A stretch of 33,949 nucleotides of DNA, from IMG/VR virus record IMGVR_UViG_3300043395_001460, positions 1 through 33,949 of that record. One strand, given 5' to 3'. The position numbers and the translations under genes are program-made. Under the pieces are notes generated by a model that had not been told where the DNA came from, made no database searches, and saw only the letters and a program-made list of their open reading frames with translations. This DNA comes from a virus. Each line of letters opens with the position of its first letter. The stretch's first letter is position 1. Shown one piece after another: positions 9,685 to 33,949 of this stretch.

Positions 9685-10203
9685 CTAGCCCTTGCTCGCG
9701 GTGACGCCGAGATCGCCGTTGTAGCGGCCAGTGATCGCGTAGCTGCGGCCGGGGATGCCTTCCATCTTGTGGAAGACCATCTGGCCGATCTTCATGCCAG
9801 GCCAGATCCCGATCGGGTGCATCCGGCGCGCATTGCTCAGCTCCAGCGTGAGGCGGCTGTTATGCCACCCTGGATCACACCAGCCGGCCAGCAGGTGCTC
9901 GAGGCCTTCGCGGGCGCGGCTGGACTTGAGCACGAACTGCGCCGCGATGAAGTCCGGCAGGTTGAAGATCTCGCGCGTCTCCGCCAGGCAGAACTCACCC
10001 GGCTGCAGCCAGTACGGGTCCTCCGCGGTGTGGCCGGCGATGCCGTGGATCTGCAGCTCAGGGCGATCCGCCACCTCGATCATGATCCGATCGCCCAGCA
10101 GCACATCGATGCTGGCCGGATTCACTAGCTCAGGATCGAATGGCACCACCATCGCGTGGCGCTTGCACAGGTCGTGGATCTCGTAGTCGGGCAGCGGAGC
10201 CAT
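9685..10203 (-). CDS. dcd: dCTP deaminase / dUTPase-fold enzyme (Dcd-like)
   Basis: The protein is 172 residues from ATG 10203. Dcd-family blocks are clear: LVNPASIDVLLGDRI at the N-terminus, FVLKSSRAREGLEHLLAGW with the nucleotide-binding SSRAR, CDPGWHNSRLTLELSN with the conserved Glu of the active site, and PGMKIGQMVF. The enzyme converts dCTP to dUTP, and some relatives also hydrolyse dUTP to dUMP, the substrate of the phage ThyX. The sequence alone does not settle which version this is. It stands alone on the minus strand with its own terminator. The divergent homing endonuclease begins 73 bp from its start. Confidence 0.9.
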   Translation of the reverse strand: MAPLPDYEIHDLCKRHAMVVPFDPELVNPASIDVLLGDRIMIEVADRPELQIHGIAGHTAEDPYWLQPGEFCLAETREIFNLPDFIAAQFVLKSSRAREGLEHLLAGWCDPGWHNSRLTLELSNARRMHPIGIWPGMKIGQMVFHKMEGIPGRSYAITGRYNGDLGVTASKG

Positions 10204-10276
10204 GCGCGCGCAGTAGGATTGGGGTGCTCCAGCGGGTTGCCGCCCCTGAAGCGTGACCACCTGCAGGACCCAGGCG

Positions 10277-10804
10277 ATGACCACCAGCGTAGAGGTGTGG
10301 AAGCCCGTTGTCGGCTACGAAGGGCTTTATGAAGTGTCGGATCACGGCCGGGTCAGAAGCTTGCGCAACCGCCGCTGGTGCGGCAGCCACTGGTACGAAG
10401 TGCCGATCAGTGCGATGAAGGCCACTATTGCCCGCAACGGTTATCCCGTGGTCAGGCTTACCAAAGAAGGCCGTGGTCGCACTGTCGCTGTTCACACGAT
10501 TGTGTTGACCGCTTTTTGTAGTTCAAAGCCAGCGGGACAAGAGTGCCGGCATCTCAATGGGAATCCTCAAGACTCCCGCTTGTGCAATCTGGCTTGGGGA
10601 ACGCCGCTTGAAAATACAGAAGACCGCAAAAGGCATGGAACCATGCCTCAAGGTCCTAAGCATCACGCAGCAAAGCTCACTATTGAACAAGTGCTTAAGA
10701 TTCGAACCGCAACAGGCGCCCATCGAGAAATTGCACAGCGCTATGGGATTGCTGCTTCTGCCGTCTCAACGATAAAAAGCCGCAAGTCTTGGTCTTGGCT
10801 CTAA
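10277..10804 (+). CDS. Freestanding homing endonuclease, NUMOD4-HNH
   Basis: The protein is 175 residues from ATG 10277; an in-frame GTG at 10253 is less likely. The N-terminus is a NUMOD4 unit (EVWKPVVGYEGLYEVSDHG, RVRSLRN). The HNH core reads VHTIVLTAFCS, then CRHLNGNPQDSRLCNLAWGT and ENTEDRKRHG. The C-terminal 45 residues form a helix-turn-helix (LTIEQVLKIRTATGAHREIA, then YGIAASAVSTIKSRKSW) that would bind the target. The 3' two thirds is visibly more AT-rich than its neighbours, a sign of recent arrival. It lies on the plus strand between two leftward genes, and its stop overlaps the endolysin stop. It is a selfish nicking or cutting enzyme that spreads to phages lacking it. Confidence 0.92.
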   Translation: MTTSVEVWKPVVGYEGLYEVSDHGRVRSLRNRRWCGSHWYEVPISAMKATIARNGYPVVRLTKEGRGRTVAVHTIVLTAFCSSKPAGQECRHLNGNPQDSRLCNLAWGTPLENTEDRKRHGTMPQGPKHHAAKLTIEQVLKIRTATGAHREIAQRYGIAASAVSTIKSRKSWSWL

Positions 10805-11877
10805 TACTCCCAGCGCACCCGTGGCCTGCCTTGCCGGATTCCTACATGCACGAATCCCTTGGCTGCTCCATAGCCCAATGAGTAGGGCCATGCCTTATCG
10901 CACCAATCCTGCACGGTGTAGATGCTTACTCCGTCAACGTACACATCAACCGCCCCGCAACCCGTCTTGAACAGGTGCTCGCTGTTACTGGCGCCACCAA
11001 CGGAGGCATTTACTGCTGGCGGCCTATGCCCACTTGTGATGATTACCGGCTTGCCAAAGTGGGCGCGCACCTTCTCAAGAAACTGGCAAAGTTCCGTAGC
11101 AATGTCGCACTGGCTTTGATTCAGAAAGCGGCGCCGCTCCTCACCGTTGCACAGCTCGCCATAGGTGAAGTTGGGGGTCACTGCAAAAGAGAACGGACTG
11201 GCCGGTGTCAGCTTGCTTGCTGGCTTTTGCGGTAAACCGATGCCCTGCATCCAAAGTCGACCCTCGGCTTGTCTGCGCCGGCGCAAGCCCGCTTCGACGT
11301 TCGTGTTGGGGTTGCAATAAAGAAGCATTGCGTCGGGGACTTTTGACCAGTCTTTGTCCCGCAGTCTGGCGGTAATAGTTTCAAAGCCTGTTGAGCCATA
11401 GAACGAGCTGCCCACGTTGTAACCCAGAGAGATGAGCGCGCACTTCTGCGCATCGGTCATCTCCACCCAGTAAGGCACGGTGATGCGCAGCTTCTCGGCG
11501 ATGCGATCCACTTCCTGCCGCAGGAGCAGGTCAGCCTCGATCGCGTTGATCGCGTCGCCACGCTTGACAGGCACACCGCCGCTATAGCGGGTGGTGCCAT
11601 ACCCAATCGTCCACGGCTCACCACCGCTGAGCGGATCGGGATAGGCGCTGAGGTGGCAGCCTTCGAACTCCTTAATCAGGCTGATCGCGGCGCTTAGGTC
11701 GCTTTGCTTGCCGTCTTGACTCCATGTCTGAAACCATTCGCGGTCGCGCCGCATCACGGCGTCGTAGCCGTTGGCGATCAGATCGGTTTCTAGCTGCTGA
11801 ATCGCGGCGCTCTGATGCGGTTGCGCCTTGTAGTACCTGAACAGCTGTTGCAGGGTGATGGGCGCGTCGTTCGCCAT
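10801..11877 (-). CDS. Two-domain endolysin: GH24 lysozyme plus M15 peptidase
   Basis: The protein is 358 residues from ATG 11877. Residues 1-58 are a helical leader. Residues about 60-215 form a T4-type lysozyme (GH24): LIKEFEGCHLSAYPDP, then EPWTIGYGTT, NAIEADLLLRQEV, and ALISLGYNVGSS. This domain cuts the sugar backbone of peptidoglycan. From about residue 235 an M15A-type zinc peptidase follows: NFTYGELC, PVIITSGHRPPAVN, SEHLFKTGCGAVDV and FVHVGI. His301, Asp311 and His344 are the likely zinc ligands. It would cut peptide stems. No signal peptide is visible, so release needs the membrane proteins encoded just upstream. The combination of a glycosidase and a peptidase in one phage lysin is unusual for this size class. 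Confidence 0.93.
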   Translation of the reverse strand: MANDAPITLQQLFRYYKAQPHQSAAIQQLETDLIANGYDAVMRRDREWFQTWSQDGKQSDLSAAISLIKEFEGCHLSAYPDPLSGGEPWTIGYGTTRYSGGVPVKRGDAINAIEADLLLRQEVDRIAEKLRITVPYWVEMTDAQKCALISLGYNVGSSFYGSTGFETITARLRDKDWSKVPDAMLLYCNPNTNVEAGLRRRRQAEGRLWMQGIGLPQKPASKLTPASPFSFAVTPNFTYGELCNGEERRRFLNQSQCDIATELCQFLEKVRAHFGKPVIITSGHRPPAVNASVGGASNSEHLFKTGCGAVDVYVDGVSIYTVQDWCDKAWPYSLGYGAAKGFVHVGIRQGRPRVRWEY

Positions 11878-12894: not shown

Positions 12895-15519
12895 CTAGCT
12901 CAAGCGGTAGCTAACAAACGTGTTGGCAGCCGTCCGCCGTGAGGCAAAACGACCGGATGCACCAGCGGCAATAGTTGCACCACCAACAATGGTGTGCCCT
13001 GTACCAGCACCAATCGTGCAGGTGCCCGATCCGGTGTTGATCACGGACCACTCAAAAGTCATGTTGGTGTAGATGCCACTGAAGCCACCTTCTGACAAGG
13101 TGCCAGTGGGTAGTGTCAGGGTTGCAGCAGCGCCGGTGTATTGGATGATGCCGGTCTTCAACTCAGCAATAGTGAGCGTTGCACCAGCACTCTTGCTGGT
13201 TACATCAGGCTGGTTGTAGCAAACAACGCGGTCATTGGTGATGCGTAGGGCTTCAGTTGGGCTTGAGGCGCCATCGGCAGTTACCGACAGAACGATCCGC
13301 CCAGGCATGTCATTTGCGCCGGGGGTGCCGTCGACAAAAGCATCAATATTTGCAGCTAGCTTGGGGGTGGATGTTCCGTCATCGCCATACCAAGATAGGG
13401 GGCCGAGTTGGTCACCACTTGACAAAATGGTTCCTATTGCTGTTGTTGATCTCGACTTAACAAAAGAGAATCCGTAAGAGAATTGGTTGGCGATTAGTGA
13501 GTGTTGGTAGATATTTCCGCCGCTGCATTCAAGCTTTCCGCTTCCAATCGCGGATCCGCCAATGCTGCTACTCGTCCCCACCAGCAGGCAACCCGATGAG
13601 TCGAGGCGGGCTTTTTCGCTGTCATTAACACCAAGCAGAAGAGGGACGTTATGCCCTGTTGCGACAAATGCGTAGCCATCTCCTGCTCTTAAATATGCGC
13701 TAGAGGCTGTGCCACCACCGCCACCTTGGTATGTTGCGTAAAATTGACCGATGGTGCCGCCAGAGGTATCTGTAGTGCCAACGCGGATACTTTGTGTACC
13801 ACTGGATCGCACGTCCAGCAGGTATTGTGGGCTACTAGTCCCCACACCTACTTTGCCATCGCTGGTGATGCGGAGGCGTTCGGTGTTGTTTGTCTGAAAA
13901 ACAATATCTGTCGAACCTGCTGTTGAAAGAAAAAGGGGAAGGTAGGATCCAGTACCCAGTCTGTCGGAAGTTATGTCTGCCGTAGTAGAAGTTGCACGTA
14001 ATCTGATGTATCCAGAGTTTGTTGGATCTGAAGCATTGGCGGCAACAATACCCGCCGTAGTATTTGATCCATTGGGCAAAATAAAAGGGGTTGTTGCTCC
14101 GTCTGTCGTACTTGTCTGGATTGCAAGCCGGTTTGCGTGAGTAGCGTTGCTAAAGTCACCGAGAAAACGCTTTCCAGTACCAGCAACCTCTACGTTCCCG
14201 TTGGAATCAATAGATAGGCGCTGGGTGCCATTAGTGGCGAGGGCTACGCTGTTAGCGGCAGGCAGGTAAACCCCGTTGGTGGGCACCGTGCTGCTTGTCG
14301 GGATGAAGCTCGCAGCGGTGCTGGTGCCGGTGGTGATGGTGTTCTGAGCGCCGAAATCAGGGCTGATCTTGGTGCCTGCAATCGCGGCGCTGGCGCTGAT
14401 GTCGCCGTTGACGATGGTGCCGTCAGCGATCATCGTGCTGGTTACGGTGCCACTATCGCCAGTCGTTACAAGGGTCCCACTGGTAGCAGGAACAGTAATG
14501 GCTGTTGTACCAGCGACAGATGCAGGAGTAACGGTAATTGTTCCGCTAGTTGCCCCTGGCAAAGCAACAGAACTGATGCCTGTGAGTGCTTGATTTGCAC
14601 TGGAGCGATTGAGTGCTACCGAAGTTGTGCCTACATATGTAGTGCTATTGCCGAGAACACCGCTTGGAATAGCGCCGCTCAGGTTGCTAGCTGTTAGTGC
14701 GATGCTGCTACCCAAACTGGTGGCATCCAACACTTTGGTGCCATTGATGCGGTACTCCTTGCCGCTGGCAATGTTGACGTGTTCGCTGAGTGTCCACGCA
14801 TCTGTGGCGTCAACCCAGTTGATCGTCTTATCCGTAGCACCCTTCAATGTGATACCGCCGCCGTCAGCGGTTACATCTGTTGGGGTTGCAACATCACCGA
14901 GGATGACGTTCTTATCCTCAACGACAAGATTCTGAGTGTTGATATTGGTGGTCATGCCGTTGACGGTCAGATCACCCGTGATCGTGACACTGCCATCGAA
15001 GGTGGCAGCACCCGTCACGTCCAACGTGCCGGGCACATCGATGTTGCTCGCCCACTCAACGCCAGTGCCAGCGGCATCAGTCTGCAGCAGTTGACGCGCG
15101 GCACCATCTGCCAGTTTGCTGACGGCGATCTCGGCGCTGGCACTGATGTCAGCGTTAACGATGCTGGCATTGCCGCTCACAATGACGGTGCCGCTCTGAT
15201 TGGGCAGTGTGATCGTGCGGTCCGCCGTCGGATCCGTCACCGCCAGCGTGGTCTCGAATCCATTGGCGGTGCTGCCCTCAAAGGTCAGCGTGCCAGTGGT
15301 GCCGATCTCCAAGTTCCCCAGCACCGTGCCGCCTGACACCACGAACGGGAAATAGGCGAGGCTGTTCCATGCCGTTGTGCCATTGCCGATCTTGATCTTC
15401 TTTGTGTCGCTCTCGAGGCCCAGCTCGTTTGCCAGCAGCGTCGGGTTTGCTGATGTCCAGTTAGCAGCAGTATCAGCGCGAAGCTGGATCTGAACCTGAA
15501 CGGTTGTGGGTGTGGTCAC
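12895..15519 (-). CDS. Tail fibre / receptor-binding protein
   Basis: The protein is 874 residues from GTG 15519, overlapping the upstream stop as GTGA. The N-terminal 60 residues (VQIQLRADTAANWTSANPTL, then KKIKIGNGTTAWNSLAY) match the head of many phage fibre proteins that docks on the tail. The shaft is repetitive and beta-rich. NADISASAEIAVSKL and NGDISASAAIAGTKI are two copies of one module, and GTLDVTGAATFDGSVTITGD resembles cyanophage fibres. Two similar blocks (NSVALATNGTQRLSIDSNGN and FQTNNTERLRITSDGKVGVG) follow. The C-terminal part (about 790-874) is probably the receptor-contact tip. The middle (about 13400-14300) is less GC-rich than its surroundings, suggesting exchange. No intramolecular chaperone was recognised. 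Confidence 0.88.
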   Translation of the reverse strand: MTTPTTVQVQIQLRADTAANWTSANPTLLANELGLESDTKKIKIGNGTTAWNSLAYFPFVVSGGTVLGNLEIGTTGTLTFEGSTANGFETTLAVTDPTADRTITLPNQSGTVIVSGNASIVNADISASAEIAVSKLADGAARQLLQTDAAGTGVEWASNIDVPGTLDVTGAATFDGSVTITGDLTVNGMTTNINTQNLVVEDKNVILGDVATPTDVTADGGGITLKGATDKTINWVDATDAWTLSEHVNIASGKEYRINGTKVLDATSLGSSIALTASNLSGAIPSGVLGNSTTYVGTTSVALNRSSANQALTGISSVALPGATSGTITVTPASVAGTTAITVPATSGTLVTTGDSGTVTSTMIADGTIVNGDISASAAIAGTKISPDFGAQNTITTGTSTAASFIPTSSTVPTNGVYLPAANSVALATNGTQRLSIDSNGNVEVAGTGKRFLGDFSNATHANRLAIQTSTTDGATTPFILPNGSNTTAGIVAANASDPTNSGYIRLRATSTTADITSDRLGTGSYLPLFLSTAGSTDIVFQTNNTERLRITSDGKVGVGTSSPQYLLDVRSSGTQSIRVGTTDTSGGTIGQFYATYQGGGGGTASSAYLRAGDGYAFVATGHNVPLLLGVNDSEKARLDSSGCLLVGTSSSIGGSAIGSGKLECSGGNIYQHSLIANQFSYGFSFVKSRSTTAIGTILSSGDQLGPLSWYGDDGTSTPKLAANIDAFVDGTPGANDMPGRIVLSVTADGASSPTEALRITNDRVVCYNQPDVTSKSAGATLTIAELKTGIIQYTGAAATLTLPTGTLSEGGFSGIYTNMTFEWSVINTGSGTCTIGAGTGHTIVGGATIAAGASGRFASRRTAANTFVSYRLS

Positions 15520-24118: not shown

Positions 24119-26917
24119 TCAGGTGGTGATGTCCAAGATGGCAGCAAAGCTCTTGGGATCGCGCACGGCCACGTCGTAGGAGACGATACCGCGAACGCTG
24201 GTCAGAGCCTTGGAGAAGTCATCGCTGTCTTCACCCACGGTGATCTCAAGACCATTACCCCAGAAACCAACCATTGCCTGGCTGAAATCGCCCATCACAA
24301 GCGCGGAACAAACACCGCTGCTGGTGCCCTTGGTCAGGGTCGAAGGAACCTGATTGGTGGCAGCCAGAGGGTAGCCGTTCAGAGCAGCAGGGGTTTGATA
24401 ACGACCGAGAGCGGCGCCATCCACGTTGAACAGGAAGGGACCGTCACCAGTGGTAGAACCACCAGCGCGGAGCTTCTTCAGAGCTGCCAGCACCTTGTAG
24501 TTGGTGACGTAAGCAACGTTGTCAGGATTGACAGCGCCGTTCACGTTCATCACAGCAGCTTCCAGATCCACCACTTTCTCAAGGGTGATCGCGCCACCGT
24601 TGGTGCCCATGGCCACCGAACCGATGCCGGAGGTCTGCATGATGCCGGTGGGCTGGCCAGAAGAACCGGAGCCGTTCAGGATGCCCAGATCAATGGCAAG
24701 GGTGATGCCATCAGTCAGATCGCGACGGACCAGATCTTCAATGCCAGGGGTGCCCTGCAGAAGGGTCTGGCGGCTGTACTTGGACAGAGCGGCCAGGTTC
24801 TTGGGGGTCATCGTCACCTGATCGAAGGTGGACTCCGACTGAGTGATCGCGGTGGTCTGGGTGCTCAGGTAGTAGGTCGAAGCAACAGCGGAGCGGCGGG
24901 GGATTGCCACGTTGCCAACCAGGCCAGGCATGGTGCGGACGCCCAGCGAGAGCATCACAGCCTGATTGCGCAGAAACTCAATGAAGTCTCCAGCAAGCAG
25001 ATCGGTAGCAACAATGTTGCCACCAGTCGTGGCGCCAGAAGTCACATAGGTGGCGCGCTGATTGAGAGCAGCAAAAGGAACAAAGAAGCTGCGCTCGGTG
25101 GTCTTCACCAGGCCAGACTTCTCGACTTCCTTGCTCACCTCACGCACAAGGCCAGCCTCGCGGCTAGACCAGTCGCCGGTCAGCATGGCGCGGATGCCAG
25201 CGGTGATGCTGTAATCAGCGCGTTCCTGCAGCGGCATGTCGATAGGAGCCACGGTCTCAATGGGCTTGGCGCCCAGCTTGTCAAGAACAAGGGCACGGGC
25301 TTCGTCGATCGAACGGCCAGACTCAACGAGTTGACGGCCAAGATCGCTCATACCGTGCTTGTCGCACAGTGCGGAAATGCCAGCGATGCGGGAGCGCTCA
25401 GCCTCAGCGGCTTCGGCCCGCACCACGGCCAGATCAGGGGTGGTGTTTTCCATTGCAGGAATGGGATCAGGTGTAGGTGCTGCCGAGGCAGCGGGTTCGT
25501 TGGGCATTAACGCTCGGCCAATACCCACGGTTTTGTCAGCCGGAATCGAGACCACAGAGATCTCATACGGTGACCAGGCGGTGGCAACAAAGTCACCACT
25601 GCCACGCTCTTCCATTTTGTCGATGGAATAGCCAAAGGACACGTTTCGAAGAACGCCATCCTTCACATCGCTCAAGACTTCCTGAGCGAAGGCGTTGCGG
25701 CTGAACCGCACACGCGCATACCCGCGACGACTACTGCCATCGATGTATGCACGCTCAACCACGCCGATAACCTTGTCAGGGTTGTGGTTGAACAACAGCG
25801 GTGCGCTGTCATTCAATCGGCTTAGATCCGCGGATTGCGGATCATGGCTGAGGATCTCATTGCCAAAATAGCGAGCGACCGGATATTCAGAACTGAATGG
25901 AAACTCAAAGGTGCGACCATCGCCATCTTCTGCTGCACGATTAAATGCAACTGAATGAAAGCGGCGAAGACCTTGCTCACACATGTCACGTTGCTCTGAA
26001 CCCACCGCAGGAATCGGTGCCTCAGGTTGATCCATTGTCAAAAGCCTCTCAGGTATGACCCACAATTTACAAATGCCAGCCGGATCAATCTCGCCGGTCA
26101 CAAGCTCGCACGCTTTCGGTCCTTGATAGAAAGCACAGTTGGCGCAGACCATACCCTCAGCAGCAAACGGGTTGCCACTGCCATCAACGTAGTGCGCGCC
26201 ATTGGCGCCGATGTCCTGCTGGAACTGGCCTACCGTCTCAACAATGTCCTCAAGCGCCTCATACATCAGCACCTGACGTGGTGACATATCAGGCGTAATG
26301 TCGCGCGTGCCACCATCGCCCGTGGCTTCTTCAAACTCGATCGGCTTGAAGTCGTGATCCGCGAGCCATTGCCTTGCCTCAGCAGCAGTGAACTGCGAAC
26401 TGCGGAAGCGAATCGCTTGGATCTCACTTTTGCCAGCCTTGATTCCATAGATGAAATCAATGCCAGGCCCGCCCGCGTCATTCTCACGACGCAGAGAGTC
26501 ATACTGTGCAGGATCTGTTAGCCGCGCTGCGTGCTCATTTGGATAGGGGCGCCCTGATTCCATAGCGCGGTTTTCTTGTATTGCTTTGATTCTATCTGCT
26601 TTTGCAGTAGCCCATTCCTGTCCAGCATCTCCGCCCCATGCGGCCCATGCCACACGGCCAGCTGATGGGTAGCCATCTTCACCAGGGCTGAAACCATCAC
26701 CCTGCTTGTCGACCTCATGCCTGGCAAACCATGCCGCCATCGTGATGACGGTTTCAGCGCTCAGCTCATCACCACTCAGGATCTGACGCGCCCTGGCCGC
26801 GGCCACCTCAGTGCCACCATCACGGCCTTCTGCTTTCCAATCGCGGTAGCGCTGCGCTTCCTCGCGCATCCCATCAGTCGGCGTCAGATCAATCTGTTCG
26901 CCATTGATGCTTGCCAT
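24119..26917 (-). CDS. Prohead protease-major capsid fusion with N-terminal extension
   Basis: One 932-residue frame from ATG 26917, overlapping the portal stop as TGATG. Residues 10-115 (REEAQRYRDWKAEGRDGGTE, GFSPGEDGYPSAGRVAWAAW) and 150-197 (GIDFIYGIKAGKSEIQAIRF, ARQWLADHDFKPIEFE) are modules I have seen in phage head proteins without a named function. C258, C261, C270 and C283 form a metal-site-like cluster. Residues 320-475 are a U35/S78-type prohead protease, with His378 (PLLFNHN), Ser427 (RNVSFGYSI) and Glu452 (EISVVSIPAD). A helical delta-like region (about 490-555) leads to an HK97-fold capsid: FIEFLRNQAVMLSLGVRTMP, VAIPRRSAVASTYYLSTQTT, QTLLQGTPGIEDLVRRDL, and the C-terminal strand KALTSVRGIVSYDVAVRDPK. 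Self-cleavage should release mature capsid protein. There is no stop or frameshift between the parts. Confidence 0.92.
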   Translation of the reverse strand: MASINGEQIDLTPTDGMREEAQRYRDWKAEGRDGGTEVAAARARQILSGDELSAETVITMAAWFARHEVDKQGDGFSPGEDGYPSAGRVAWAAWGGDAGQEWATAKADRIKAIQENRAMESGRPYPNEHAARLTDPAQYDSLRRENDAGGPGIDFIYGIKAGKSEIQAIRFRSSQFTAAEARQWLADHDFKPIEFEEATGDGGTRDITPDMSPRQVLMYEALEDIVETVGQFQQDIGANGAHYVDGSGNPFAAEGMVCANCAFYQGPKACELVTGEIDPAGICKLWVIPERLLTMDQPEAPIPAVGSEQRDMCEQGLRRFHSVAFNRAAEDGDGRTFEFPFSSEYPVARYFGNEILSHDPQSADLSRLNDSAPLLFNHNPDKVIGVVERAYIDGSSRRGYARVRFSRNAFAQEVLSDVKDGVLRNVSFGYSIDKMEERGSGDFVATAWSPYEISVVSIPADKTVGIGRALMPNEPAASAAPTPDPIPAMENTTPDLAVVRAEAAEAERSRIAGISALCDKHGMSDLGRQLVESGRSIDEARALVLDKLGAKPIETVAPIDMPLQERADYSITAGIRAMLTGDWSSREAGLVREVSKEVEKSGLVKTTERSFFVPFAALNQRATYVTSGATTGGNIVATDLLAGDFIEFLRNQAVMLSLGVRTMPGLVGNVAIPRRSAVASTYYLSTQTTAITQSESTFDQVTMTPKNLAALSKYSRQTLLQGTPGIEDLVRRDLTDGITLAIDLGILNGSGSSGQPTGIMQTSGIGSVAMGTNGGAITLEKVVDLEAAVMNVNGAVNPDNVAYVTNYKVLAALKKLRAGGSTTGDGPFLFNVDGAALGRYQTPAALNGYPLAATNQVPSTLTKGTSSGVCSALVMGDFSQAMVGFWGNGLEITVGEDSDDFSKALTSVRGIVSYDVAVRDPKSFAAILDITT

Positions 26918-28500
26918 CAATCCTCCGGCGCCTCGGTCGGATCCTCGAGGACTGATTGCTCCACATATACCTCTTCTTCCATTGGAGGCAGAGTGTCTGC
27001 AAACGCATCCTCTGATCCCATCGGCTTGGCCACCTGCGTCGCGCCGCCTTCTGTCACCTCGCTTGGATCGGTGTCCGTCACGATGTTCATCTCATCCAAC
27101 ATCGCCAGCTCAGCCTGACGCATAACCAGCACATCATCCAGATCGCCGCCCTGCTCAGCGATCACTTGGCCAAGTGTCTTAAAGCCGCAGCGCACTGCCG
27201 TCTTATAGGCGTCAACCTCACGCTGCGGGTCTACCCATTCCCAACTGCGCGGCACCCAGCGGCTAGCCCGATAGCGATCAGGATTGGTCTCATAGCCAGG
27301 CAGGTCCAGCGCGCCGCCAAGCACGGCCATCTCAAGCCACTTCTCAAACACTGGCTGGTGGAAGTTTTCGATCATGTACCGCTGCAGAACGCGATAAGTG
27401 TCACGCTCCTCAAGCAGGCTCAACCGGCTGCTGCTGTAGTTGCTCTCTGAGAAGTTCTTGGACACCGACTCAAACGAAACACCAACCCCGGCTGCCACTG
27501 CGCGCAACATCGATCGAGTGAACGGCTCAAGCTGCCCATCCGGTGCGTTGAGATCGGGCACTGTCACGCTTTCGCCCGGCGCCAAATACTTGAACACACC
27601 AGGCTCAAAATTGCTAACGCGCTCAGAACCATACAACTCATCGCCCATCAGCTCACCCTCGGGTGATTGGATGAATCCCATCAGCGCGCTGCTCGCACGC
27701 GCACGCACCACCTCAGCTTCCTCATAGCCCTGCAACATGTGAAGCCGCATCAGGGCAGAGGCAAACCATGTCACCCCGCGAGTCTGACCTGGCCGCTCCG
27801 GCAGAAACAAATGGATCACCTCGTCAGCAGGAACCCTGATCCGCTTCACACCTTGGCCGCGGCCAACGCCCATTGCAGCATCGCCAGGATGCTGGCTGTA
27901 GAAGTGATAAGCCTGCGGCCGCAGAAACCCATCCACCTCAATACCCATTCGCACGAAGTTGCCATCCTTCGCGGCGGGCATATCCTCATCCACCAAGTAA
28001 TCCGCCTCGAGCACCTGCAACGCAAACGGCACCTGGCTATCGCCAAACGGCCGGCGGATCATGCGCACAAATACCTCACCACTCTCGGCCAGGCTCCGCA
28101 CCACCAGGCGTTCGATGTCGTGGAAGCCAAGGATCCCGCTGACATCACAGCGGTTCTTGTTCATCCACTTTTCCCATGCCTCATGGATCTGGCCATTGAT
28201 GGCCTCATCCAATTTGCCGCCGCGCAGCATCCGCACCTGGCCCTGATGCCGGATGCCGTGACCAATCACATTGTTCTGAATAGAACGGACTGCCTGCCGT
28301 GCGTAGTCATTATCACGACACAGTTGCCGCGCTCGATTACGCAGTGCCTTGAAGCTGCCCTTGATCTCGGCATCAGCGCTAGTGCCACTCGTCACCCAAT
28401 CAGCCGTCAGCCTGCTACTGCGCGCACCTTGGTAAGCGCGACGTTGTGACCGCACAGGTTCAAAACCCATTGCCCGGAACAGCCTTGTGCGCAGTCCCAT
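26917..28500 (-). CDS. Portal protein (lambda gpB type)
   Basis: The protein is 527 residues from ATG 28500. Portal hallmarks: ARSSRLTADWVTSGTSADAE, LRNRARQLCRDNDYARQAVR, then SIQNNVIGHGI; LVVRSLAESGEVFVRMI; LQVLEADYLVDEDMP; DEVIHLFLPERPGQTRGVTW; and VGVSFESVSKNFSESNYSSS. These are the conserved core of the lambda-B portal family. It forms the dodecameric ring at one capsid vertex through which DNA is packaged and released. The acidic C-terminal 60 residues are probably internal and may be trimmed. Unlike lambda C, no separate protease gene follows. Confidence 0.95.
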   Translation of the reverse strand: MGLRTRLFRAMGFEPVRSQRRAYQGARSSRLTADWVTSGTSADAEIKGSFKALRNRARQLCRDNDYARQAVRSIQNNVIGHGIRHQGQVRMLRGGKLDEAINGQIHEAWEKWMNKNRCDVSGILGFHDIERLVVRSLAESGEVFVRMIRRPFGDSQVPFALQVLEADYLVDEDMPAAKDGNFVRMGIEVDGFLRPQAYHFYSQHPGDAAMGVGRGQGVKRIRVPADEVIHLFLPERPGQTRGVTWFASALMRLHMLQGYEEAEVVRARASSALMGFIQSPEGELMGDELYGSERVSNFEPGVFKYLAPGESVTVPDLNAPDGQLEPFTRSMLRAVAAGVGVSFESVSKNFSESNYSSSRLSLLEERDTYRVLQRYMIENFHQPVFEKWLEMAVLGGALDLPGYETNPDRYRASRWVPRSWEWVDPQREVDAYKTAVRCGFKTLGQVIAEQGGDLDDVLVMRQAELAMLDEMNIVTDTDPSEVTEGGATQVAKPMGSEDAFADTLPPMEEEVYVEQSVLEDPTEAPED

Positions 28501-29069
28501 CAGAACCTCACGAACAGATTGTGGGGATTGCCCAAACCATTGGCAATGGCTTCAGCCTTTTGCTCGCGTATCACTTGAGCCTTCAACTGGCTTTGCAGTG
28601 CAAGCAAGTCAGAGAGATCATACTTGCTCAGACTTCGGTTGCCGATTGAATACTGCCTAACTACGCCACCCGTGACGATCGCTCGAATCGCTGCATCAAC
28701 AGCATCCAAATCCTTTTGCGCTTGACTGCGGCCATCAAATGCAGTTGGTGAACCTGTATAGCTAAGGCTTGGAAGCACCTCAAACTGTCCAGCTCCGAGC
28801 GTTACATGCTCACCACTTTTCGTGGCTTCAGCTTGGAAATACCACTGGCCGGCATCAAATGCAGCGCTTGTCGCCTGCGAAATTACAAACTCCCAGCCGG
28901 ACCCATAAGCAGTTCCAACAACCGTGGCGCCTTCGTTGTTGTGGTCAAATCTCAAGTAATACGTCAGCGTCCACGTTGCACTCGTGATCGCGTTGCCCAG
29001 ATTGTCAACGCCAGCATCGTCGCGCCACTTGATCGTGTCGCCTGCCCTGATCTGACTAGGGATCTTCAC
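28500..29069 (-). CDS. Head-tail connector protein, gpW-like C-terminus
   Basis: A 189-residue protein from GTG 29069, with GGTGAGG as a likely ribosome-binding site just upstream. The N-terminal 110 residues are beta-rich (IRAGDTIKWRDDAG, ATWTLTYYLRFDHNNEGATV, QWYFQAEATKSGEHVTLGAG). From residue 115 comes a helix, strand, helix unit: DLDAVDAAIRAIVTGGVVRQ, YSIGNRSLSKYDLSDLLAL, then SQLKAQVIREQK. This matches lambda gpW, which sits at the same place between the large terminase and the portal. The N-terminal sandwich is an added domain absent from lambda W. It should bind below the portal and help tail attachment. Confidence 0.75.
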   Translation of the reverse strand: MKIPSQIRAGDTIKWRDDAGVDNLGNAITSATWTLTYYLRFDHNNEGATVVGTAYGSGWEFVISQATSAAFDAGQWYFQAEATKSGEHVTLGAGQFEVLPSLSYTGSPTAFDGRSQAQKDLDAVDAAIRAIVTGGVVRQYSIGNRSLSKYDLSDLLALQSQLKAQVIREQKAEAIANGLGNPHNLFVRF

Positions 29070-29073
29070 GGCC

Positions 29074-30933
29074 TCACCAGTTGCTGACGAATCCAGGCCC
29101 AGCCGTGGCCGGTGCTTGCTGTCTTGATCTTAGCGGTGGCTTCTTGCCATCTTCCAACTGCGCTCTTAACTGATCCCACATGGTCGCTTGGTTCATCCTG
29201 CGCCCATAGAGCAACATCGCCGCGTAGGCGTAGACCATGCAATCCAATGCCTCATTGCGATCGCCTGCCTTCTTCACCCACTCCCTGATCGGAAACCCGC
29301 GGTGATATCGCAGCGCCTGCCGCTCACTGGTCACCTGCTTGAAGTAGTCAGCATCAGCAGCCATGCCAAAGTTCAATCCGCCAGCCTGTTGGTTGTGGCG
29401 CAGCCGGCCGAACAACGTCGTCTTGATCGTGTCGGTTCCCAGCTGATACAGCGTCACGCCACGCCGCAGCACCTTGCCGCGCCAATTCACATCCACCTTG
29501 TTGCCCTTACCAACCGCTGGGCTGTTGCGTCTACTGCTGCCCTTAATCGCCACCACCCCCTGACCCACGCGGTCACGCACATACCGATACACCTCGTGCG
29601 TGCAGTGGCCGCCAGAGTCAACCGCCATCTGCGCCACCTTCAACGTCTTGCCGCTCTCCGTGTCCCAATCAGTCGCCAGCACCTGATCCAGCTGGCCCCA
29701 CACTTCCGTTTGCGTCGGGTCGCCCATCAGCTCCTGATGCCACACCATCCATCCCGTCTCACCCTCACCCCAGCCCCATACCGTCACCGCTAATCGGTTG
29801 TCCTGCACGTCAACGCCAGCAGTCAGCAACACCACGCCTTCAGGGCACAGCCCACTGCGATATGCCAGCCGGCGTTCCATCAATCCATCGGCGCTGATCT
29901 TCGCCGCGTAGTCCTCCTCCCATGTCTCCGCCAGGCGCGTATTGACGAACGCCTTAAGCGCCGGCGCATCACCCTTGGCCCTTAGAAAATCATCCACCAG
30001 CTGTTCCCAGCTGCACCAGCCCAATGGGCTGTAAAGCCCCGACAACTGGAACCCAGCCGTCCGCCCATTGCCAGCCGGTGCTGTTGCACGCCACTCACCA
30101 GCGCGCAACATGCCCGGCTTGTGCAGTTCCTCATATCGCTCGCCGCAGTGCTCGCACTGATAGCGCGCAGTTTCAGGCTTGCCCTCGGTCCACTTCAGCT
30201 GGCCCCACTTCAGCCAATCCATTGCGCCACAACTCGGGCATGGCACATAGAACCGCCGCTGATCGCTCCGCAAATACTCAGCCTCGATGCGGCTGAAATC
30301 CTTCACGGTCGGAGTGCTGGTCAGCAAGATCTTCCGCCGCGCAAATGTCGTCGTCCGTCGCTCTGCCAGCGCTACCGGATCACCCTCGCCGTCCACATCG
30401 CTAGGAAATCCATCCACCTCATCGCAGAACAAATACCTACACGGCGCTGATCGCAAACCCGTCGCGCTGTTGGCCCCAGTCAGCAGCATGATCCCACCGC
30501 TGAACTCCTTGCTAAACATCGTGTTGCCAGAGTCCCGCGCCCGCGCCGGTGCGATCTTCTCTGCCAAGCACGGTGTCTCCGTGATCATGCTCTCGAGGCG
30601 TTGCTTACTCAATCGCTTCGCCATCTCAACAGTCGGCTGCACGCACAACATCGGCCCCGGCGCATGGTCGATCACATAGCCCAGCCAGTTGCTGCCCGCC
30701 TCCGTCTTGCCCGTCTGCGCAGCAAACATCATCACCACCCGCTGCACTGGGCTTTCGCTGCTCAGGCAGTCCATCGGCTCACGCAGGTATGGCGTCCGAT
30801 CTGTGCGCCACGGCCCAGGCTCCGCGCTTGCCTTGCTGCTCAGCCGCCGATAGCGATCCGACCATTCACTAACGGTCAGCGGCTGCTCAGGGCGCAGCCC
30901 ATCCATGAATCCTTCACGCCACGCGCTACTCAT
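29074..30933 (-). CDS. terL: Terminase large subunit (lambda gpA type)
   Basis: The protein is 619 residues from ATG 30933, overlapping terS by 8 bases. The ATPase carries Walker A AAQTGKTE (71-78), then LTGANSATGLRS and Walker B RYLFCDEVDG (about 166-175). A zinc finger follows at about 230-265 (CPSCG...CEHCG). The nuclease half has TAGVDVQDNRLAVTVWGWG with a catalytic Asp, AQMAVDSGGH, and EALDCMVYAYAAMLLYG near the end. These are GpA_ATPase features. This enzyme powers packaging and cuts the concatemer. GpA-type terminases usually make staggered cuts at cos sites. Confidence 0.96.
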   Translation of the reverse strand: MSSAWREGFMDGLRPEQPLTVSEWSDRYRRLSSKASAEPGPWRTDRTPYLREPMDCLSSESPVQRVVMMFAAQTGKTEAGSNWLGYVIDHAPGPMLCVQPTVEMAKRLSKQRLESMITETPCLAEKIAPARARDSGNTMFSKEFSGGIMLLTGANSATGLRSAPCRYLFCDEVDGFPSDVDGEGDPVALAERRTTTFARRKILLTSTPTVKDFSRIEAEYLRSDQRRFYVPCPSCGAMDWLKWGQLKWTEGKPETARYQCEHCGERYEELHKPGMLRAGEWRATAPAGNGRTAGFQLSGLYSPLGWCSWEQLVDDFLRAKGDAPALKAFVNTRLAETWEEDYAAKISADGLMERRLAYRSGLCPEGVVLLTAGVDVQDNRLAVTVWGWGEGETGWMVWHQELMGDPTQTEVWGQLDQVLATDWDTESGKTLKVAQMAVDSGGHCTHEVYRYVRDRVGQGVVAIKGSSRRNSPAVGKGNKVDVNWRGKVLRRGVTLYQLGTDTIKTTLFGRLRHNQQAGGLNFGMAADADYFKQVTSERQALRYHRGFPIREWVKKAGDRNEALDCMVYAYAAMLLYGRRMNQATMWDQLRAQLEDGKKPPLRSRQQAPATAGPGFVSNW

Positions 30934-32487: not shown

Positions 32488-32717
32488 TTCCAACCTTCCA
32501 ACCTTCCAACCTCGGCCAAGGACTCGCGAGACATTCGGTGCAGCCGTCGATTCCTGCCAACCTGTCAACCTTGCCAACGTTGCCCCTATAGGTCCTTTTT
32601 CGGTCCTTACTACTCTTTACAGAGATCCTTCAGAAAGGTTGGGAGGTTAGAAAGGTTGGCTAAGTCGCTGGGCCGCAAGGGATCTCAGCCTTCCAACCTC
32701 ATGCCGCAGGTTGGAAG
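32488..32717. repeat. TTCCAACC iteron-like repeat cluster
   Basis: Three exact tandem TTCCAACC units lie at 32488-32511. Degenerate copies follow at 32555-32562, 32563-32570 and 32571-32578. Inverted copies lie at 32637-32644, 32645-32652 and 32654-32661. TTCCAACC recurs at 32691-32698 and GGTTGGAA at 32709-32716. The last two form a perfect 10-bp inverted repeat (32690-32699 and 32708-32717) over the stop codon of the primase-helicase. A stretch at 32585-32640 (CCTATAGG, a GGTCCTT direct repeat, T runs) is less GC-rich. Directly and inversely repeated short units beside the replication gene suggest a replication origin or a multi-site operator. Confidence 0.7.
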
Positions 32718-33949
32718 AATACCCATTTGGCCCTGCCTTCGACCCATTGGCGCTGCTTGATGAAGCCGAGCTCGCGCATGATCGATGCCACCTGCATCTG
32801 ATCAGCGCGGCCTTGGCGCTCCACTGGTTTGCTGATCGCTTCGCTCAACAGCAGCTCACTGGTGATGGGTCGGCCGTCGTTGCGAGGTGCTCCGAGCCAC
32901 TCCTGAATGGCTGCTTTCCATGGGCTATCCACGAGGTAGGACTCGTTCTCGTGATCCACCTGTGCGCTGTGTTCGCGTGAGAGGTGATTTGGCTGGCCCT
33001 CGCGGTAAGCGGCTACTGCTGCGCTCCAGATGGCATCACGCTCAAGCAGCAGGCCATCCACGGGGATGTGTGGCGCAGCGGTGACGGGGATGACCCAGAA
33101 GCGCCGGTTGCCGGTGTCGTCGACCAGGAAGCCGGTGTCGCGGTTGGTGGAACCGACGATGATCGAGCGGCGTGGGTATGCCTCCGTGGTGCGCTGGTAT
33201 GGCGCGCGGAACATATCGGTCTGCTGGGTGAGAAAGGCTTTCACCTGGCCTGCGTGCTTGCGGCCGGTGATGTGATCGAGCTCGGCCCATTCCATGAGCC
33301 ATGAGCGGTGCAGCACCATCAGGTCATCTTTCGAGCCGATGTCTCGTAGTGCATCGGAGAACCAAAGCCCGCCGAGGTTGCGCCAGAAGGTGGACTTACC
33401 GCAGCCTTGGGGGCCCATGAGCACGCAGGCTGAGTCGTGCTTACAGCCGGGCTCGAAGATGCGCCGCACAGCCGCTATGAGGGTGGCCTTGAGCATGGCG
33501 TCGTAGAGGCTGCCAGGAGCGTCTCCAGGGCGCAGGTAAGCGGTTGCTAGGTGCTCGATGGGTACGGGCTGCACGTGATCGGCTACGTGCTCGAGATATT
33601 CGCGAACCGGGTCGTATGGGTTTTCGAGTGCGACGACATGTACGGCATCTGCTGCGAGGTCTTTGGTGACCTTGACGCCTTGCTGTGAGAGCTCGAGGTA
33701 GAAGTGCTCGATGTGCTCGAGCGGTTGCTCGTCTAGCTCGATGGTCTTGGTGAAAACATTCCAGCGGAGGCGGTCTGCCATCTGCTGGCGCAGCAGGGCC
33801 AGGAGTTCGTTTGATTCCAGCTTGAGCAGTTTGCCGGTTGTCGGTGTAGGGTTTGGCGCGCCATTAGGTTTGTGGACGATGGGCCGCGCGGCTGGAGACG
33901 TGCGGCTTTTCTCATGGCCGGCCAGGTGAGCAAGGGTGCCGAGGGAGAC
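32699..33949 (-). CDS. Primase-polymerase / VapE-type helicase, C-terminal part (begins at 910 across the join)
   Basis: This is the helicase half, with bases 33823-33949 duplicating 1-127. The stop is at 32699-32701. After a linker (about residues 285-330 of the full protein), the VapE/D5-like SF3 ATPase follows. Walker A GPQGCGKST is at about 440-448. WLMEWAELDHI is Walker B-like, then KAFLTQQTDMFRAPYQR and SIIVGSTNRDTGFLVDDTGN with RRFW. A winged-helix-like end follows (ASIMRELGFIKQRQW, WVFFQPAA). Such fusions prime and unwind at phage and satellite origins. With no polymerase gene recognised nearby, this protein is probably the core of the replisome. The gene is flanked on both sides by GGTTGG-type repeats. 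Confidence 0.92.
   Translation of the reverse strand, partial: VSLGTLAHLAGHEKSRTSPAARPIVHKPNGAPNPTPTTGKLLKLESNELLALLRQQMADRLRWNVFTKTIELDEQPLEHIEHFYLELSQQGVKVTKDLAADAVHVVALENPYDPVREYLEHVADHVQPVPIEHLATAYLRPGDAPGSLYDAMLKATLIAAVRRIFEPGCKHDSACVLMGPQGCGKSTFWRNLGGLWFSDALRDIGSKDDLMVLHRSWLMEWAELDHITGRKHAGQVKAFLTQQTDMFRAPYQRTTEAYPRRSIIVGSTNRDTGFLVDDTGNRRFWVIPVTAAPHIPVDGLLLERDAIWSAAVAAYREGQPNHLSREHSAQVDHENESYLVDSPWKAAIQEWLGAPRNDGRPITSELLLSEAISKPVERQGRADQMQVASIMRELGFIKQRQWVEGRAKWVFFQPAA
33823..33949. repeat. Right copy of the 127-bp terminal direct repeat
   Basis: Identical to bases 1-127. It should be removed once when the circle is closed. The primase-helicase frame is in phase through either copy, since the 33,822-bp unit length is a multiple of three and the codon register is unchanged. 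Confidence 0.95.

Follow-up and report, generated by a model that had tools for sequence, protein, structure and literature searches.

The protease-capsid gene and its relatives

The window, ie the whole 33,949-nucleotide stretch of DNA that was analysed, carries on its minus strand a protease-capsid fusion gene at 24119-26917. The frame runs from an ATG at 26917 to a stop codon at 24119-24121, encodes 932 amino acids and has no internal stop. Its ATG overlaps the stop codon of the portal gene (TGATG; 26917-28500, phrog_21, E 4e-118), and genes for a head-tail joining protein (28500-29069, phrog_5774) and the terminase large subunit (29074-30933) lie on the same strand. A cyanobacterial host is likely, because the nearest terminases among isolates are those of S-CBS3 and S-CBS1 (51%). 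Elsewhere, a plus-strand gene for a NUMOD4 + HNH homing-type endonuclease (10253-10804) adjoins a dCTP deaminase-like gene (9685-10284, minus). Also on the minus strand are a two-domain endolysin with phage lysozyme and peptidase M15 domains (10801-11877), an 874-residue tail protein with an Mtd N-terminal domain (12895-15519; an mtd gene is annotated in related cyanophages) and, near the right end of the window, a VapE-like gene (virulence-associated protein E-like domain; 32699-33781).

The fusion protein is ordered as modules A, B and C, the S78 protease, a variable linker, a delta-like segment (D) and an HK97-type capsid domain. An initial sequence-only reading had described a single uninterrupted 932-residue frame holding protease, capsid and a 300-residue N-terminal extension, and both the frame and the profile matches bear this out. 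Its residue numbers for the protease and the cysteine spacing are all correct; the strand, which it did not give, is minus. The prohead protease occupies residues 328-469 (25511-25936) by Pfam and family profile, the Pfam Peptidase_S78 match covering residues 369-463 at 38.4 bits (cut-off 21). The catalytic His378 (25784-25786) and Ser427 (25637-25639), together with Glu452 (25562-25564), are unchanged in an alignment of eight phages, ie the window and seven isolates. By its profile and these conserved residues, the protein is assigned to Peptidase S78. Segment D, at residues 489-610 (25088-25453), is called delta- or scaffold-like from its family profile and from its position between the protease and the mature capsid. 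The major capsid domain covers residues 611-932 (24122-25087). Its Pfam Phage_capsid match (residues 632-926, 134.6 bits, cut-off 24.2) spans profile positions 1-277 of 280, a near-full-length match by which the domain is classed as an HK97-fold capsid protein; it also matches the shell chain of phage R4C (8gta, E 4e-29).

The fusion had been read as unusual, but it belongs to a large known family. Residues 314-929 match phrog_617 at E 4.5e-111 and PHROG 4523 also matches; the labels of the two groups are 'major head protein' and 'major head and protease protein'. A tblastn search returned 129 phage records, including VP882, phiHAP-1, Jilinvirus, Cronusvirus, S-LBS1, S-CBS1 and S-CBS3, and the CRP roseophages. 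On its sequence the window gene is thus a PHROG 617-type fusion, in which a single frame following the portal gene encodes both the S78 protease and the HK97-type capsid. Other members (Vibrio VP882, Halomonas phiHAP-1, Jilinvirus, Cronusvirus R4C, Synechococcus S-LBS1) likewise have an S78-delta-like-HK97 gene directly 3' of the portal gene, but most lack the 300-residue modular extension. The Synechococcus phages S-CBS1 and S-CBS3 and the Roseobacter phages CRP-831, CRP-811 and CRP-406 share with the window the same fusion with module A, and none of them has C; the S-CBS phages also carry B, CRP-831 has the order A-F-B and CRP-811 has A-Tudor. Further candidates have been described, namely the capsid polyprotein of Pseudomonas phage PAJU2 (P85500), for which autocatalytic cleavage was proposed, and ORF18 of Lactococcus phage Nocturne116, both as possible prohead protease-capsid fusions (PMC8306868). 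The passage of that paper dealing with them does not mention a modular extension like that of the window.

The reality of the long frame was judged from related contigs. The order A-B-C-protease-D-capsid recurs, in one frame each, on two independent contigs (L091 and L013). Between the window and L091, dN is 0.010-0.069 and dS 0.41-1.75 in each of modules A to C, in the linker from C to the protease, and in the protease, D and capsid domains; in module C the values are 0.010 and 0.44. Only the short (20-residue) protease/D linker is looser (dN 0.27, dS 0.50). The substitution pattern argues that purifying selection acts along nearly the whole fusion chain. An assembly error or hidden frameshift between protease and capsid is ruled out by the independent contigs and the low dN/dS along the chain, and on these two grounds a sequencing or assembly artefact can be set aside for practical purposes.

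A modular N-terminal extension

The extension had been treated as a fixed part of the protein, with two further modules in its first 300 residues beside the cysteine cluster. The two modules are there, as A (residues 1-114, 26576-26917) and B (residues 120-198, PYPNEHAARL..., 26324-26560), both confidently predicted folds (AlphaFold2 model of A+B, pLDDT 88.3). Module A is helical and phrog_2859-like (E 2.5e-28). Module B is BRX-like: its Pfam BRX match is below the cut-off (E 9e-4, 19 bits, cut-off 24.5) and its best VIA match, to the BRX domain of RLD2 (Z 4.9, 53 residues, 4.1 Å), is a weak likeness. Against PDB folds, A+B gave no Foldseek match below E 0.001 and only middling Z values with VIA. 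Among predicted viral structures, A/B-like folds were found in prohead proteases, portals and XkdF-type proteins, and also in proteins named HAD-like, Dps and ParB/sulfiredoxin. The annotation of Roseobacter phage CRP-823 divides the capsid gene into a pair of overlapping CDS (L008:1480-4408), the frame changing inside B, which may be a sequencing error or a real split.

A survey of 143 distinct fusion ORFs, in all of which the protease-D-capsid core is constant, indicates that the extension is not fixed. Five modules were scored: helical A, BRX-like B, HiPIP-like C, Tudor (PF11160, Hva1_TUDOR) and F (DUF5824-like). Nothing recognisable lies upstream of the core in 55 ORFs; the others have A-B-Tudor (33), A-B (13), A-Tudor (11), B (8), A (6), A-B-C (3), C (3) and rarer combinations or orders including A-C-B-Tudor, C-B-Tudor, A-Tudor-B and A-F-B, so that no fewer than 11 module combinations occur, in several different orders. 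On a tree of the capsid domain the minimum numbers of changes are 10 for A, 13 for B, 4 for C (with 5 carriers) and 12 for Tudor, counts that are approximate since the tree is a quick one with several long branches. One pair of contigs, identical in capsid sequence, carries different modules. Contig L013 has A, B, C and protease in common with the window but a very different capsid (dN 0.61), whereas L010 has A, B, protease and capsid in common with it and lacks C, a pattern of recombination at module borders. Modules A, C, Tudor and F also occur on separate, unfused S78 proteases, and C on an S49-type protease. From its sequence distribution, then, the extension is made up of exchangeable modules that have been reordered, lost and regained on a single protease-capsid core. 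The fusion itself was already known; the less ordinary part is the interchangeable front end that recurs on the capsid proteases of many phages.

Module C (residues 211-292, 26042-26287) was delimited from a 35-sequence alignment and holds the cluster Cys258-x2-Cys261-x8-Cys270-x12-Cys283 (26069-26146). Scanning viral contigs for it gave 162 relatives. In the 35 aligned sequences the mean column identity is 66%, and all four cysteines are kept in 35/35 with spacing 2/7-8/12; also invariant are an upstream His-Tyr and, close to the final Cys, a Lys and a Trp. The profile of C matched the high potential iron-sulfur protein (HiPIP) 3h31 of Rhodothermus marinus in the PDB at E 3.8e-5, and there were weaker matches to HiPIP-type PioC, 1hpi and 1isu, interspersed with disintegrins. 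The HiPIP family PF01355 shares with C the C-x2-C...C...C order, an aligned upstream Tyr and an 'NG-x-C-x2-W' end; in comparison C has shorter spacing, is fused to head proteins and has a cluster that is only putative. PF01355 matches 28 of the 35 members, the window segment reaching at best 20.3 bits against a gathering cut-off of 22. The AlphaFold2 model of C is poor (pLDDT 67.8) and gave no Foldseek fold match from so weak a model. Because of the sub-threshold Pfam score and the poor model, C is named HiPIP-like and not HiPIP. The suggestion that the cysteines bind a metal or cofactor is nevertheless strengthened by the conserved HiPIP-like Cys4, which makes the module a candidate that probably holds an iron-sulfur cluster.

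Many carriers of C are head proteases. It lies N-terminal to an unfused S78 protease in six contigs (L097, L099, L110, L119, L123 and L131), after the S78 protease in another (L148), and on the C-terminal side of an S49-type head maturation protease in L125. In the head locus of the isolate DSL-LC01, an Actinomycetia phage, C is part of a CDS whose annotation reads 'capsid maturation protease', and a CDS annotated 'high potential iron-sulfur protein' is present there too. Unlike in the window, this protease is separate from the capsid protein. An origin of C as a cellular domain was rejected: in some 85,000 species genomes of bacteria and archaea it was found in only four short MAG contigs, one of them with the full A-C-B-protease-capsid order. 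It is this near absence that makes C look phage-borne. Within the literature library searched, nothing relevant turned up on HiPIP domains in phage proteases or capsids. In one fusion protein (L251) a different Cys-rich segment (CQNCGYYENTP...GYCTKWDITC, at about residues 205-340) fills the slot between B and the protease, and looks similar to the DSL-LC01 'high potential iron-sulfur protein' (L171:1074-1808).

Internal initiation and stoichiometry

A fusion of protease and capsid had been taken to force the two into a 1:1 ratio. Met489 (25451-25453), at the protease/D junction, bears directly on this point. The junction Met is present in about 105 of 110 distinct protease/D junctions, even though the linker before it varies, and is missing in four related contigs. 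In 18 isolates of non-cyanobacterial hosts it is preceded by a Shine-Dalgarno sequence with a mean energy of -6.28 kcal/mol, compared with -5.46 for annotated starts and -2.37 kcal/mol for other in-frame Met codons (Mann-Whitney p 6e-8, which overstates independence as the isolates are related). In simulations with synonymous codons, a control made per gene, the junction strength was never reached in 20,000 draws; in the PEVP group the amino acids account for the Shine-Dalgarno. Because of this strong signal, an extra unfused delta-capsid product is predicted in the non-cyanophage relatives. A conserved in-frame ATG with Shine-Dalgarno was thus seen within genes annotated 'major capsid protein' in 18 isolates (L331-L343, L009, L090, L004-L006), apparently an unannotated nested capsid start.

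The window clade differs. None of its 45 sequences has a Shine-Dalgarno at the junction Met (mean +0.45, none at or below -4), the value at Met489 itself is about +0.6, and S-CBS1, S-CBS3 and S-LBS1 likewise have none there, although the window and these three phages have one at most of their other gene starts. An internal start just before the protease was also considered, and was rejected as there is no conserved ATG with Shine-Dalgarno at that site. Since neither position shows such a start, the window gene is better read as giving one long product. The presumed 1:1 ratio is nonetheless uncertain: in the 18 non-cyanophage relatives an internal start would add unfused capsid protein, whereas in the window clade the signal for it is absent.

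The T=7 shell of R4C is built of 415 copies (PMC10276861). Were a shell of 415 copies to consist of full-length chains throughout, its interior would need to hold about 28 MDa (about 34,000 nm3), which on a rough estimate is four fifths of a sphere with an assumed inner radius of 21.5 nm. Such crowding would be a serious difficulty, unless some of the product is shorter, initiation occurs without a Shine-Dalgarno, or the head is large; S-LBS1 heads are reported to measure 75-80 nm (PMC6157547).

Processing of the polyprotein and role of the modules

The R4C gene product is a 629-residue fusion, and the shell chain deposited for it (8gta) contains residues 362-629 only. This chain aligns from window residue 632 (codon 25022-25024), downstream of the protease. 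The expectation that the N-terminal part must be removed from the shell is consistent with this analogue, in which the upstream parts are absent from the solved chain. The text of the R4C paper mentions neither protease nor cleavage (PMC10276861), so that cleavage is inferred from the deposited chain; the late start could also reflect disorder, so that the cut site is approximate.

N-terminal parts of HK97-type capsid proteins face the prohead interior in the HK97 paradigm, and this is also their scaffold side. By analogy, the C-terminal domain of the window protein would build the prohead shell, so that modules A to C, the S78 protease and the delta-like segment would lie inside. Once the prohead has assembled, the protease would cut upstream of about residue 632; mature capsid protein would stay in the shell and the N-terminal part would be released. 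In this scheme A, B and HiPIP-like C would be interchangeable passengers, dispensable for assembly, carried by the head protein into the prohead interior, where they may act within the particle or, if retained, be delivered with the DNA. The fusion, the conserved catalytic residues, the R4C chain start, the swapping of modules and the four invariant cysteines are observed; the orientation follows the HK97 precedent, and the iron-sulfur cluster, the passenger role and the fate of the modules are our inference. Taken as a whole, a self-processing head polyprotein with passenger modules has about an even chance of being correct. Counting against it are the crowding, the sub-threshold HiPIP match and poor model of C, and the attachment of module A to non-head proteins as well (the HAD-like, ParB/sulfiredoxin and Dps names given above), by which A is not strictly bound to entry into the capsid.

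Three other readings were weighed against this polyprotein model. Initiation at Met489 might yield a separate delta-capsid protein, with only a minority of subunits carrying protease and modules, as a scaffold is nested within the protease gene in lambda (C/Nu3) and the herpesviruses (UL26/UL26.5). The signal at the junction, as strong in the 18 isolates as at annotated starts, the persistence of the Met beside a variable linker and the relief of crowding make this a strong second reading for the family. It does not carry over to the window clade, where (as in S-CBS1, S-CBS3 and S-LBS1) the signal is missing, and the four contigs without the Met and the PEVP group also count against it; for the gene studied here it is improbable. 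The modules could instead regulate or chaperone the protease, keeping it inactive or docking it, with the Cys4 site acting as a switch, by redox state or metal, to hold back cleavage until the prohead has assembled. The recurrence of C and A beside proteases of two unrelated families, S78 and S49, would fit, but the 55 module-free ORFs, the replacement of modules by unrelated folds, their placement on either side of the protease and the presence of A on portals and other proteins make such a role unlikely too. Least probable is that the extension helps as a scaffold or fills space, fixing the size of the prohead before being simply degraded. It would be bulky and sits on the appropriate side of the capsid protein; unrelated folds, however, swap freely on an unchanged core, and a filler has no need of invariant cysteines.

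The comparison also gives a directly testable answer to the question of stoichiometry in protease-capsid fusions: most isolates would have a ribosome site within the gene, which the cyanophages have apparently lost. Here one of the most highly conserved tailed-phage machines carries a front end that is modular and quickly exchanged. Should the modules enter the prohead and stay there, head proteases would be a common route for packaging foreign domains, possibly including an iron-sulfur protein, into environmental phage virions. A broader version, put forward tentatively and with little expectation that it holds, makes head proteins a general loading dock: swappable domains (HiPIP-like, Tudor, BRX-like) fused to the protease/capsid polyprotein would enter the prohead, be cut free by the same protease and be ejected into the host with the genome, as a delivery system for effector-like domains.
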